NCBI RefSeq assembly: GCF_029210365.1
Contig: NZ_JARGES010000056.1
Span: forward strand, 248,001-312,000
Length of the DNA stretch: 64,000 bases
Direction of reading: 5' to 3'
Source of the DNA: Mesorhizobium sp. YIM 152430
Lineage (GTDB): Bacteria; Pseudomonadota; Alphaproteobacteria; Rhizobiales; Rhizobiaceae
In this document: in pieces, positions 24,051 through 26,818 of the stretch
Layout of the letters: each line of letters opens with the position of its first letter
Position numbering within the stretch: position 1 is the stretch's first letter
Notes under the pieces: model-generated
Told to the model about the DNA's origin: nothing
The model's input: the letters and a program-made list of their open reading frames with translations, nothing else
Database searches by the model: none
Position numbers and translations under genes: made by a program

Positions 24051-24094
24051 TTCTCGCCTCATCACGTCAAAGTTAATGGCGCCTCGCGATACAA

Positions 24095-24109
24095 GAACAT
24101 AACAAGAAC
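24095..24109. promoter_or_regulatory. SOS (LexA) box at the radical SAM/UdgX operon
   Basis: GAAC-ATAACAA-GAAC is an exact GAAC-N7-GAAC, the complement of the GTTC-N7-GTTC LexA site known for alphaproteobacteria. It ends 2 bases before the ATG of the first gene, so LexA binding would block transcription or elongation at the start. Sequence match is direct; LexA binding is inferred. Confidence 0.75.
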
Positions 24110-24111
24110 GA

Positions 24112-25347
24112 ATGACCGTTCTTTCGACTCGCGACAAGCTGGCGATCCTGTCGGACGCCGCCAAATACGATGCTTCCTGCGCTTCCTCCGGCGCAGCCAA
24201 GCGCAATTCGCTGAAATCGGGCGGCATCGGTTCGACGGAAGGGTCCGGCATCTGTCATTCCTATGCGCCGGACGGCCGTTGCATCTCGCTCTTGAAAATC
24301 CTTCTGACCAATTTCTGCATCTACGATTGCAGCTACTGCATCAACCGCTCCTCCTCCAATGTGAAACGCGCGCGCTTTTCGATCGAGGAGGTGGTGCGGC
24401 TGACGCTGGAATTCTACAAGCGCAACTACATCGAGGGCCTGTTCCTCTCCTCCGGCGTCATCCGCTCGCCCGACGAGACGATGGGCGAGATGGTGGAAAT
24501 CGCGCGCCGGCTGCGCGTCGACGAGAAGTTCGGCGGCTACATCCACTTGAAGACCATCCCCGAATGCGCACCCGAACTGCTTGAACAGGCCGGTCTTTAT
24601 GCCGACCGCCTGTCCATCAATGTTGAACTGCCGACCGATGAGGGCGTGAAGCGGCTGGCTCCCGAAAAGCGGCCCGAGACGATCCGTCTCTCGATGGCGA
24701 AGCTGCGCGCCAAGATCGAGGAGAAGGCCGAGCCGACGCTGAAGACGAAGAAACGCCAGCGCTTCGCGCCAGGCGGCCAGTCGACGCAGATGATCGTCGG
24801 CGCCGATGCGACGAACGACGCCGAAATTCTCGGTGCCAGCGCGCGGCTTTACGGCAGCTACCAGCTTCGGCGCGTCTACTATTCCGCCTTCAGCCCGATC
24901 CCGGACGCCTCGTCGGCGCTGCCCTTGATGAAGCCGCCGCTGATGCGCGAGCACCGCCTGTATCAGGCCGACTGGCTGATGCGCTTCTACGGCTTCGACC
25001 GGCATGAGATCGTCGCGGGCCGGCAAGACGGGATGCTCGATCTGGAGATCGACCCGAAGCTGTCATGGGCACTCGCCAATCGCGGCGCTTTCCCCGTCGA
25101 CGTCAACCGGGCGCCGCGCGAAATGCTCCTGCGCGTGCCCGGTTTCGGCACCAGAGCGGTGCAGAAGATGCTCGACATGCGCCGCTTTCGTCGTCTGCGG
25201 CTCGAGGATGTCGGCCGGCTGTGCCAGTCGATCGCGAAGGTCCGCCCCTTCATCGTCGCCGAAGGTTGGTCGCCGGGCGGGACGACGGATGCGCAACATC
25301 TGCGGGCACGGCTGATTGGCAGGCCGACGCAGTTGAGTTTGTTCTGA
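24112..25347 (+). CDS. Radical SAM protein of the UDG-linked DNA modification/repair family
   Basis: 411 residues. The SAM 4Fe-4S motif is C69-IYD-C73-SY-C76. The C-terminus holds a helix-hairpin-helix (VNRAPREMLLRVPGFGTRAVQKML), which implies DNA binding. The pattern matches the radical SAM family found beside DUF4130 and uracil-DNA glycosylase-like genes (called a putative DNA modification/repair radical SAM protein). The reaction is unknown; repair of a damaged base by radical chemistry is plausible. The next gene starts one base after its stop. The GAAC-N7-GAAC box just before the start suggests induction by DNA damage. Confidence 0.9.
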   Translation: MTVLSTRDKLAILSDAAKYDASCASSGAAKRNSLKSGGIGSTEGSGICHSYAPDGRCISLLKILLTNFCIYDCSYCINRSSSNVKRARFSIEEVVRLTLEFYKRNYIEGLFLSSGVIRSPDETMGEMVEIARRLRVDEKFGGYIHLKTIPECAPELLEQAGLYADRLSINVELPTDEGVKRLAPEKRPETIRLSMAKLRAKIEEKAEPTLKTKKRQRFAPGGQSTQMIVGADATNDAEILGASARLYGSYQLRRVYYSAFSPIPDASSALPLMKPPLMREHRLYQADWLMRFYGFDRHEIVAGRQDGMLDLEIDPKLSWALANRGAFPVDVNRAPREMLLRVPGFGTRAVQKMLDMRRFRRLRLEDVGRLCQSIAKVRPFIVAEGWSPGGTTDAQHLRARLIGRPTQLSLF

Positions 25348-25348
25348 G

Positions 25349-26818
25349 ATGATTGTGCTCCACGCCACCACTCTCCAAACCGTCCACCTTTCTTCCCAGA
25401 CCGACTTCCCCGCCTGGCGCGATGCCGCCCGCCGTCTCGCAACCAACGACATCCCCCCGGCCGACATCGTCTGGAACGTCGGCGAAAGCGATGACCTCTT
25501 CGCCGACGACGCCTCCTTGCCCGAGGTCGCACCCCAGGTGGCGCTCAACGTTCCGCGTGAATTCATCGACCGCGCCGAGGCGGTGATCTGTCATTCCGAC
25601 CCGGCCCGTTTCGCCCTCCTCTACCGCATCCTTGTCCGGCTGCGCGCCGATCCGAACCTGTTGAAGATCGCGTCCGATCCGGACGTGATGAAGCTCAACG
25701 AGATGGAAAAAGCCGTCCGCCGCGACATTCACAAGATGCGCGCCTTCGTGCGGTTCGTGGAAATCGGCGAGGGCGAGGACGCGCGCTATGCCGCGTGGTT
25801 CGAGCCCGATCATTTCATCGTCGAGCGCAACGCACCCTTCTTCGTGCGCCGGTTCACCGGGATGAAATGGGCCATCCTGACGCCCAAGGGCACCGCCGAA
25901 TGGGACGGCGAAAGCCTGACCATCGGTCCGCCCGCCTCGAAGGCCGACGCGCCGGCGGCCGATGCGACCGAGGACCTTTGGCTCACCTATTTCACCAACA
26001 TCTTCAACCCCGCGCGGCTGAAGGTGAAGGCGATGCAGGCCGAGATGCCGAAGAAATACTGGAAGAACCTGCCCGAGGCGGCGCTGATCCCCGACCTGAT
26101 TAGGGGCGCGGACCGGGCTGCCAGGGAGATGATCGAAAGAATGCCCACCCTGCCGGCGCCGCATCATGCGAAGGTTCAGGAGAAATACTGGTCGGCGAAG
26201 GAAGCGACTGCCGCCCCCGAGGCGCCCGCCGGCTCGCTGGACGAGGCGCGCAGACAGGCCGAGGGCTGCCGCCGCTGCCCGCTCTGGCGCGACGCGACGC
26301 AGACCGTGTTCGGCGAGGGACCGCACGATGCGCGGATCGTCTTCGTCGGCGAACAGCCGGGCGACCGGGAGGACATTGCCGGCAAGCCCTTCGTCGGCCC
26401 GGCCGGCAAGGTCTTCAACGACGTGCTCGACGAAGCCGGGATCGACCGGCGCATAACCTATGTCACCAATGCGGTAAAGCACTTCAAGTTCGAGCCGCGC
26501 GGCAAGCGGCGCATTCACTTCAAACCCAATGTGGTCGAGGTGCTGGCCTGCCGCTGGTGGGTGGAGCAAGAACTGGGCCTCATCCAGCCGGACCTCGCCG
26601 TGGCGCTCGGCGCGACCGCGGCGCTGTCGTTGCTCGGCAGAGCGATCCCGGTGACGAAGCTGCGGGGCGAGGTTCTGACGCGCGACGACGGCCTGCGAGT
26701 CTTCATCACCATCCACCCCTCCTTCATCCTGCGCATCAGTGAGCGCGCGGACGCCGAGGCGGAGCGGACGCGTTTCGTGGAGGACATGGTGGCGGTGAGA
26801 AAGTTGATGGCGGCGTAG
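25349..26818 (+). CDS. DUF4130 domain fused to UdgX-type uracil-DNA glycosylase
   Basis: 489 residues in two parts. Residues about 1-250 match the DUF4130/TIGR03915 domain of unknown function (FARRILVRLRADPNLLKI-like core, WFEPDHFIVERNAPFFVRRF, MPKKYWKNLPEA). Residues about 290-489 are a UdgX-type glycosylase: CxxC in EGCRRCPLW, GEQPGDRED near 334, NAVKHFKF, and the KRRIH loop at 386-390. In characterised UdgX the His of this loop (here His390) becomes covalently joined to DNA after uracil removal. The gene is coupled to the radical SAM gene and under the same SOS-type box. Whether this fusion keeps the suicide reaction is untested. Confidence 0.92.
   Translation: MIVLHATTLQTVHLSSQTDFPAWRDAARRLATNDIPPADIVWNVGESDDLFADDASLPEVAPQVALNVPREFIDRAEAVICHSDPARFALLYRILVRLRADPNLLKIASDPDVMKLNEMEKAVRRDIHKMRAFVRFVEIGEGEDARYAAWFEPDHFIVERNAPFFVRRFTGMKWAILTPKGTAEWDGESLTIGPPASKADAPAADATEDLWLTYFTNIFNPARLKVKAMQAEMPKKYWKNLPEAALIPDLIRGADRAAREMIERMPTLPAPHHAKVQEKYWSAKEATAAPEAPAGSLDEARRQAEGCRRCPLWRDATQTVFGEGPHDARIVFVGEQPGDREDIAGKPFVGPAGKVFNDVLDEAGIDRRITYVTNAVKHFKFEPRGKRRIHFKPNVVEVLACRWWVEQELGLIQPDLAVALGATAALSLLGRAIPVTKLRGEVLTRDDGLRVFITIHPSFILRISERADAEAERTRFVEDMVAVRKLMAA

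Follow-up and report, generated by a model that had tools for sequence, protein, structure and literature searches.

Three linked protein families, the radical SAM (rSAM) family TIGR03916 (rSAM_link_UDG), the DUF4130 family TIGR03915 and the UdgX family TIGR03914 (COG4277 with COG1573), have a stated function that goes no further than “putative DNA modification/repair,” the label that NCBIfam gives to TIGR03916. A link between the gene pair and the SOS response is already published and is not new here: for Bacteroidetes, a passage of PMC8565304 predicts SOS control of the COG1573–COG4277 pair, and it refers to previous accounts of such a link in Verrucomicrobia and Alphaproteobacteria. A portion of PMC3765255 associates DUF4130 with SplB-like radical SAM proteins and UDGs, with thymines as a possible target of modification. 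UdgX protein has been used to map uracil in genomes, and its physiological role, on which the present locus bears, is called largely unknown in one section of PMC10359453. Here we analyzed a 64,000-nucleotide stretch of the Mesorhizobium sp. YIM 152430 genome (the window), which carries all three families in one predicted operon. We consider the chances about evenly balanced that this operon is a LexA-repressed, damage-induced, clamp-tethered radical SAM repair module, with rSAM and DUF4130 as its core and UdgX as an optional covalent cap.

LexA box and predicted promoter

The sequence-only reading of this DNA had described an exact GAAC-N7-GAAC box ending two bases ahead of the start codon of a radical SAM gene, followed after one base by a gene fusing DUF4130 to UdgX, with a KRRIH loop that places His390 in the UdgX part. 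The positions, the residue numbering and the profile scores of all three families bear out this description (Table 1).

Table 1. Features of the operon, in window coordinates
Feature	Position	Strand	Evidence
Predicted promoter	24077..24105	+	-35 region 24077-24082 TGGCGC; -10-like hexamer 24100-24105 TAACAA; 17-bp spacing
LexA box GAAC-N7-GAAC	24095..24109	+	Exact match; sequence GAACATAACAAGAAC
Radical SAM protein, TIGR03916 (rSAM_link_UDG), 411 aa	24112..25347	+	Profile 563 bits vs cut-off 343.5; Pfam Radical_SAM
Extra conserved cysteines C23, C48, C57	24178..24282	+	Kept in 19/20 aligned proteins
C69xxxC73xxC76, radical SAM cluster motif	24316..24339	+	Invariant in alignments of 50 and 17 rows
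Helix-hairpin-helix (HhH) region, about aa 325-371	25084..25224	+	Weak Pfam HHH_3; weak ComEA/RuvA similarity, E 0.06-0.7
C-terminal QLSLF, predicted beta-clamp (DnaN) binding motif	25330..25344	+	Sequence motif comparison
Fusion ORF DUF4130-UdgX, 489 aa	25349..26818	+	TIGR03915 219 bits (cut-off 112); TIGR03914 315 bits (cut-off 190)
DUF4130 / TIGR03915 domain	25394..26080	+	219 bits; Pfam DUF4130 137 vs cut-off 27
UdgX (TIGR03914) domain	26084..26794	+	315 bits; M. smegmatis UdgX structures are best solved relatives, E 7e-73
KRRIH R-loop, aa 386-390; His390 predicted DNA-linking residue	26504..26518	+	R388 and H390 invariant

The box is conserved ahead of orthologous operons. It occurs within 150 bp upstream of the rSAM gene at 121 of 125 alpha-type loci, the window's own included, compared with 17 of 553 control ORFs, and is found both at loci retrieved with the rSAM profile (47/48) and at those retrieved with the fusion as query (74/77); the exact box is absent from these 150 bp at 4 of the 125. 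The upstream boxes comprise 61 distinct sequences, and the 125 loci are those left from a sample of 140 (L001–L140) once 15 without a usable rSAM were excluded. Across the window the pattern is only mildly enriched (5 matches against 1.86 expected, a count reached in 1 of 100 shuffles), so the case for a box at this operon rests on its position and conservation. In the genome itself, which has a LexA gene and GAAC-type boxes at lexA, recA and dinB, GAACAT-N5-GAAC occurs at 12 sites and the reversed pattern at none. Chance occurrence of the box was rejected on this contrast, on that between loci and control ORFs and on the counts within the window.

The alphaproteobacterial operator is given for Caulobacter, in a portion of PMC9578287, as GTTC-N7-GTTC; an operator of this type marks the alphaproteobacterial LexA regulon, and one lies at the predicted promoter of the operon. 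This promoter, which is new in this analysis, would overlap the box, its -10-like hexamer falling within the box spacer, and the start is predicted to be leaderless. The promoter signal is weak in the window's own sequence; a logo of 103 distinct upstream regions has T at box-18 (65%), G at box-16 (55%) and a TATAxT-like element from box+5 to +10.

Beyond the alpha-type loci, the comparison covered 22 non-alpha Pseudomonadota genomes: 14 have an exact E. coli-type box at the operon and 5 more have one with a single mismatch, 4 of these 5 boxes being identical and from one genus and hence not independent; no recognized box was found at the remaining three loci (L163, L170 and L176). The 19 fetched stretches, 154 kb in all, hold 16 exact sites of this type, 14 of them at the rSAM operon. 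LexA control of the operon is thus nearly certain, and LexA would be expected to bind at the predicted operator. That the control is of the damage type, and is exerted through LexA motifs of two unrelated kinds, also argues for repair and against a role in which the rSAM protein makes a protective DNA modification, a reading that the NCBIfam name would accommodate but that we consider very improbable, PADLOC having matched neither protein. An anti-phage defense system was rejected on the same search (0 families for both proteins).

The radical SAM protein and its C-terminal tail

The rSAM protein, modeled by AlphaFold with a pLDDT of 86.5, finds its best Foldseek matches in HydE, HydG, ThiH and BioB and carries the CxxxCxxC motif of TIGR03916. 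Three further conserved cysteines, C23, C48 and C57, are a new observation here and could possibly hold a second Fe-S cluster. The 20 proteins compared for them come from alphaproteobacterial records, from those of other Pseudomonadota and from plasmid and phage-labelled ones, and the one exception is L161 (Gemmatirosa), which was aligned as a member at first and, as a 35% relative, left out of the counts, but stays in this alignment and in one other. The 20-protein alignment includes L210, whose DUF4130 row breaks off at the end and which was left out of the 22-member DUF4130 comparison described below. The HhH region scores 14.5 bits with HHH_3, below the cut-off of 27, in the window protein and 28.0 bits in a relative (L159).

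A clamp-type motif lies within the last 14 residues of 146 of 150 rSAM proteins (122/123 alpha-type, the window's included, and 24/27 others) and of none of 659 control ORFs. This tail class was drawn up after the tails had been seen; the narrower pattern Q[LM]x[LM][FWLI] gives 118/150 against 0/659. Q407 is invariant in both alignments (50/50 and 17/17). According to parts of PMC3919608 and PMC12309361, the clamp motif has the consensus QL[S/D]LF, in which positions 1, 4 and 5 matter most, and the rSAM tail has this form, as expected of sliding-clamp-binding proteins. The C-terminal end of the genome's own DinB, used as a positive control, lacks a clamp-type motif. Collectively, the tails suggest docking of the rSAM protein on the replication clamp, which makes the motif a candidate tether, new here.

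SOS control and a clamp motif would also suit an accessory to mutagenesis or tolerance, in which error-prone polymerases induced by SOS work on the clamp with help from the pair, for example the alteration of a blocking base so as to allow copying, with no true repair, and a figure legend in PMC3765255 calls DUF4130 a predicted mutagenesis-related enzyme. However, the operon has no polymerase or imu gene and the neighbors examined are metabolic, and we regard this explanation as unlikely.

A core pair with an optional UdgX

Among 349 genomes, 70 have both rSAM and DUF4130 over cut-off, 3 have DUF4130 only and none has rSAM only. Within the family, both occur in 66 of 151 genomes, in two of which (G022 and G124) the genes are separated by about 0.5 Mb or sit on separate contigs. 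UdgX is distributed otherwise. On the rSAM tree, its fusion has changed state no fewer than 7 times, and 19 of 21 genomes without the fusion have no UdgX over cut-off. The pair occurs without UdgX on a Parabacteroides plasmid and in an Acinetobacter-labelled record, and 14 of the 22 non-alpha Pseudomonadota genomes have the pair with no UdgX fused to it; the control genome Bacteroides ihuae matches the rSAM and DUF4130 profiles and not that of UdgX. Among the controls, the species Caulobacter crescentus has matches to all three families, in rows that identify the genome above cut-off in some cases only. Seven alpha-type loci have a DUF4130 ORF without a UDG, all among the rSAM-profile loci, from which 23 complete DUF4130 ORFs were recovered, longer ones often being cut by the locus end. 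In most sampled alpha loci, as in the window's own genome, DUF4130 is fused to UdgX, but UdgX presence in the 140-locus sample is biased because the fusion served as query in finding 80 of these loci. Three of the excluded loci (L088, L107 and L130) hold a UdgX fusion with no rSAM in the locus. A DNA-level search gave no E. coli match. A phage module was rejected: relatives occur in only 10 of 50,697 phage records and 2 viral contigs, and PHROGs matched one weak, generic radical SAM family. These distributions suggest that rSAM and DUF4130 form the conserved core and that UdgX is optional, a view that is new here.

The sequence-only reading had proposed first that rSAM and DUF4130 process or release the covalent UdgX–DNA product. 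Fusion and operon do bring the three together, and a passage of PMC10359453 suggests RecA-dependent pathways or proteases for UdgX adducts. The core pair nevertheless persists where UdgX is missing or not fused, in the plasmid, the Acinetobacter-labelled record, the non-alpha genomes and the seven alpha-type loci, and the solved M. smegmatis UdgX chains comprise only 205–229 aa, without DUF4130. Adduct release is disfavored and scarcely probable as the purpose of the pair. Support remains for a module of two proteins under LexA control, one with a uracil domain of the UdgX type, its boxes being conserved ahead of orthologs. The alternative offered in the same reading, that rSAM and DUF4130 act on an unusual damaged base, may apply.

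The UdgX active-site motifs of the fusion protein (the KRRIH loop, GEQPG and HP) are intact, R388 and H390 are invariant across 55 aligned fusion proteins, and the 50 Foldseek matches listed for this protein all have the UDG fold. The motifs would fit a base-excision system, put forward for the gene pair in a passage of PMC8565304, in which UdgX is the main enzyme and acts on uracil or nucleotides wrongly inserted by SOS polymerases. We find this distinctly unlikely, given the many members that lack UdgX yet keep rSAM and DUF4130. In 22 diverse members, three arginines of DUF4130 are invariant and none of its acidic, His or Cys residues is, and it resembles a partner that binds DNA or lesions more than it does a hydrolase; E243, D110, H128 and E152 are almost invariant, however, and DUF4130 may have a catalytic function after all. 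A Pfam search at E values up to 10 returned, apart from DUF4130, a single weak match, to DUF317.

Proposed mechanism and comparison with known systems

In the module that we favor, DNA damage would lead to cleavage of LexA and open the promoter that overlaps the box. The rSAM protein would dock on the sliding clamp through its QLSLF tail while its HhH region contacts DNA, and, together with DUF4130, would apply a 5′-deoxyadenosyl radical to a damaged base, repairing or editing it where forks have stalled or gaps are left. The UdgX part of the fusion may cap uracil sites covalently near this machinery. The basis of the model in sequence is the box, the conservation of such a box in two forms that belong to unrelated LexA motifs, the rSAM–DUF4130 pairing, the dispensability of UdgX, the tail motif and the conserved cysteines; LexA binding, clamp binding, complex formation and radical chemistry on DNA are what we infer. 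A core of rSAM and DUF4130, an optional UdgX and probable clamp riding change the choice of first experiment, make the job of the module easier to test and direct attention to radical reactions on DNA at replication forks.

By its scores with the same three profiles, the locus is an ordinary member of the TIGR03916/TIGR03915/TIGR03914 families, to whose description the present analysis adds the optional UdgX, the clamp-type rSAM tail and the predicted promoter overlapping the box. The UdgX part resembles UdgX of Mycobacterium smegmatis in about 48% identity (Foldseek), the KRRIH loop and the GEQPG and HP motifs, but is fused to DUF4130 and adjoins an rSAM gene. Spore photoproduct lyase (SPL, SplB) is likewise a radical SAM DNA-repair enzyme and, according to a passage of PMC8565304, is SOS-regulated in several species. 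The rSAM protein, in contrast, matched only TIGR03916 and no SPL profile, and the 50 Foldseek matches listed for it include none to SPL; they are of the HydE, HydG, ThiH, BioB, LipA and viperin types. We tentatively propose, as a possibility that falls somewhat short of an even chance, that the family is, alongside SPL but separate from it, a second class of radical SAM enzyme in DNA repair, working in a clamp-tethered state with DUF4130 as its lesion-binding partner and UdgX as a bolt-on covalent uracil cap. The clamp-bound polymerases PolC and DnaE carry the same pentapeptide, the C terminus of PolC also being QLSLF in a portion of PMC12309361, whereas here it sits on a radical SAM protein, a clamp binder as predicted from its sequence.

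The two-gene unit and its proteins

The arrangement read from sequence alone, an exact LexA-type box ahead of a radical SAM (rSAM) gene followed by a DUF4130–UdgX fusion gene, was confirmed by the open reading frames, the box pattern and profile scores over cut-off. The unit is most likely these two genes alone, because the neighboring genes examined belong to metabolism: a glutamine-synthetase-like gene lies upstream, and a MOFRL/glycerate-kinase-like gene, an amidohydrolase gene and a urate oxidase gene lie downstream on the other strand. At 11 loci, mainly of Sphingomonas, a hemerythrin-like gene seemingly lies between the two genes; Pfam Hemerythrin HHE was confirmed in all three such genes tested (62–64 bits), and the product might shield the oxygen-sensitive rSAM enzyme.

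Features of the locus in the window, with the hemerythrin-like gene at collected loci (L handles)
Feature	Position	Evidence
LexA box GAACATAACAAGAAC	24095-24109	exact pattern match
rSAM ORF	24112-25347	TIGR03916, 563 bits, over cut-off
DUF4130-UdgX fusion ORF	25349-26818	TIGR03915 (DUF4130) 219 bits, TIGR03914 (UdgX) 315 bits, both over cut-off
Hemerythrin-like gene	L071:5525-6001; L104:2862-3347; L123:4153-4638; similar loci	loose pattern

The rSAM protein is highly conserved (47–66% identity to the window protein in a diverse set, n = 17), DUF4130 far less so (15–52%, n = 14). Among solved structures, rSAM best matches HydE, HydG, ThiH, and BioB. Beyond C69/C73/C76 (window numbering), cysteines C23, C48, and C57 are present in 19/20 proteins (all but L161, a 35% relative) and could form a second cluster. 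Across 22 diverse DUF4130 members, R135, F136, P153, R168, I176, R223, and P234 are invariant, besides the first residue, and no acid, His or Cys is; because H128 (20/22), E152 (19/22), and E243 (21/22) are near-invariant, we would only lean toward a binding partner rather than a hydrolase, and do not count this as a result. All 55 aligned fusion proteins share R388 and H390 in the UdgX domain, together with GEQPG and the motif B HP, and all nine nonalphaproteobacterial fusions inspected have His at the place matching H390, with an altered loop in L211. The fused UdgX of two loci, L043 and L046 (genomes G355 and G413), keeps the KRRIH-type loop and its His and has lost a CxxC and a later Cys that other members keep, which we take to be probable Fe-S cluster ligands. 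In the available text of two UdgX papers (PMC10359453, PMC10776899), a term search found no occurrence of SOS, operon, DUF, or fusion; our literature search found no paper mentioning both UdgX and radical SAM, and one mentioning DUF4130.

A conserved pair with UdgX as accessory

Across 349 Pseudomonadota genomes, rSAM and DUF4130 both score over cut-off in 70, DUF4130 alone in 3, and rSAM alone in none; the three exceptions (G614, G630, and G697), with no rSAM over cut-off, all belong to one genus. In the window's family both genes occur in 66 of 151 genomes, rSAM over cut-off without DUF4130 is confined to an incomplete genome (G043, 76%), and G082 holds an rSAM fragment. Both genes are retained in G022, where they lie ∼0.5 Mb apart, and in G124, where they are on different contigs. 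A diverged second DUF4130–UdgX copy without rSAM was seen in genome G728 (L212, contig C5).

As one option, the sequence-only reading had suggested that rSAM and DUF4130 may process or release the UdgX–DNA adduct. UdgX is unfused in 14 of all 22 nonalphaproteobacterial Pseudomonadota genomes with DUF4130 over cut-off (loci L163, L170, and L176 plus 19 fetched stretches) and in seven alpha-type loci. These seven, out of 100 complete DUF4130 ORFs recovered, all belong to the 23 from rSAM-profile loci. No UdgX is fused in a Parabacteroides plasmid or an Acinetobacter-labeled record, and the control genome of Bacteroides ihuae matches the rSAM and DUF4130 profiles, not the UdgX profile. On a tree of 62 rSAM proteins, with fused alphaproteobacterial rows thinned, the fusion label has to change 8 times, or at least 7 times when only supported branches are counted, and the midpoint root does not distinguish gain from loss; a Parabacteroides/Acinetobacter/L162/L163 group and locus L033 are without UdgX. 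A search for UdgX elsewhere, which recovered 5/5 fused controls, was positive in 2 of 21 no-fusion genomes (G183 and G410) and found none over cut-off in the other 19, some of which hold ordinary family-4-like matches (110–139 bits). Since UdgX thus does not track the pair, the core substrate is probably something other than its adducts, and adduct processing is disfavored. A second UDG-like match in the window's own genome (G000:C40:260696-261244; 130 bits, under the UdgX cut-off) is probably an ordinary family-4 UDG. The 240-kb record CAKLQH020000003.1 ("Acinetobacter phage MD-2021a"; L159) may be misfiled chromosomal DNA rather than phage, because glyQ, glyS, and acyl-CoA dehydrogenase genes adjoin the pair.

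A clamp-type tail on the radical SAM protein

The window rSAM ends in PTQLSLF; the clamp-binding consensus is QL[S/D]LF, in which, according to the accessible parts of PMC3919608 and PMC12309361, positions 1, 4, and 5 matter most. A clamp-type motif, of a class picked after the tails had been seen, occurs in the C-terminal 14 residues of 122/123 alpha-type rSAM proteins (window included) and 24/27 others but in none of 659 control ORFs; with a tighter class the counts are 99/123 and 19/27, again with no control ORF. Three of the four motif-less proteins are near-misses (L124, QFELF; L170 and L176, QGSLF), and the last 14 residues of the fourth, L162, hold no such motif. In 50 aligned rSAM proteins the motif ends a variable tail, with Q407 invariant, L410 kept in 46, and F411 in 36 (Leu in 13). 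QL[SD]LF was not found in 100 fusion protein sequences, nor a clamp-type tail in the DinB of the window's genome. A literature search, whose wordings were not exhaustive, found no paper joining a clamp-binding motif to radical SAM. The best account is a clamp-tethered DNA-repair pair of rSAM and DUF4130, in which rSAM is predicted to dock on the sliding clamp through its C-terminal tail and UdgX would be an optional cap.

Predicted LexA operators across lineages

The proposed check, a box ahead of this gene pair in other genomes, bore out the LexA part of the reading. Of 140 loci collected, 125 have a usable rSAM, and 121 of these, the window's included, have an exact box no more than 150 bp from where rSAM starts, vs. 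17 of 553 other ORFs from the same loci; the window itself holds 5 pattern matches vs. 1.86 expected. There are 61 distinct box sequences, and 36 of 40 positions upstream of GAAC-oriented boxes carry <0.2 bits, so box conservation is not mere relatedness. GAAC orientation predominates (110/126), the commonest position starting 17 bases ahead of the start codon (40 boxes); the 16 GTTC-oriented boxes sit between −50 and −108, most of them around −97, at loci of Bradyrhizobium/Tardiphaga/Afipia type and a few that are unassigned. Loci L033, L065, L082, and L101 lack an exact box within 150 bp, L065 and L082 having a site with 7/8 box letters. The logo has T at box −18 and G at box −16, resembling a −35 element, and, 17 bp away within the box spacer, a TATAxT-like hexamer; LexA would therefore occupy this predicted promoter, and transcripts of the −17 class would lack a leader.

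The window's genome encodes LexA, with a box ∼50 bp ahead of lexA, one 124 bp before a gene that we take from its protein sequence to be recA (L146), and one right at the likely start of another presumed, likewise, to be dinB (L151). An AT-type box pattern gives 12 sites there vs. 0 for the reversed pattern; several are within ORFs or distant from any start and are probably not operators.

Beyond the Alphaproteobacteria, the expectation of a box ahead of orthologous operons held in another form: the Escherichia coli-type operator CTGT-N8-ACAG precedes rSAM as an exact match in 14 of the 22 genomes and as a one-mismatch version in another 5, 4 of these being identical and from a single genus. 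It was not found ahead of rSAM in L163 (132 bp upstream only), L170 or L176. The 19 fetched stretches (154 kb) hold 16 such sites, 14 of them at this operon; 7 of 73 control ORFs have one nearby, 5 divergent from the rSAM promoter and 2 being the DUF4130 gene itself. With the alpha-type box in alphaproteobacterial loci and the E. coli-type operator in most of the other Pseudomonadota examined, the operon would therefore appear to be controlled by whichever LexA motif its host uses. SOS control of the pair is near certain and already in print: as far as the available text of PMC8565304 goes, it was predicted for COG1573–COG4277 in Bacteroidetes, with reports cited for Verrucomicrobia and Alphaproteobacteria, in agreement with the present result.
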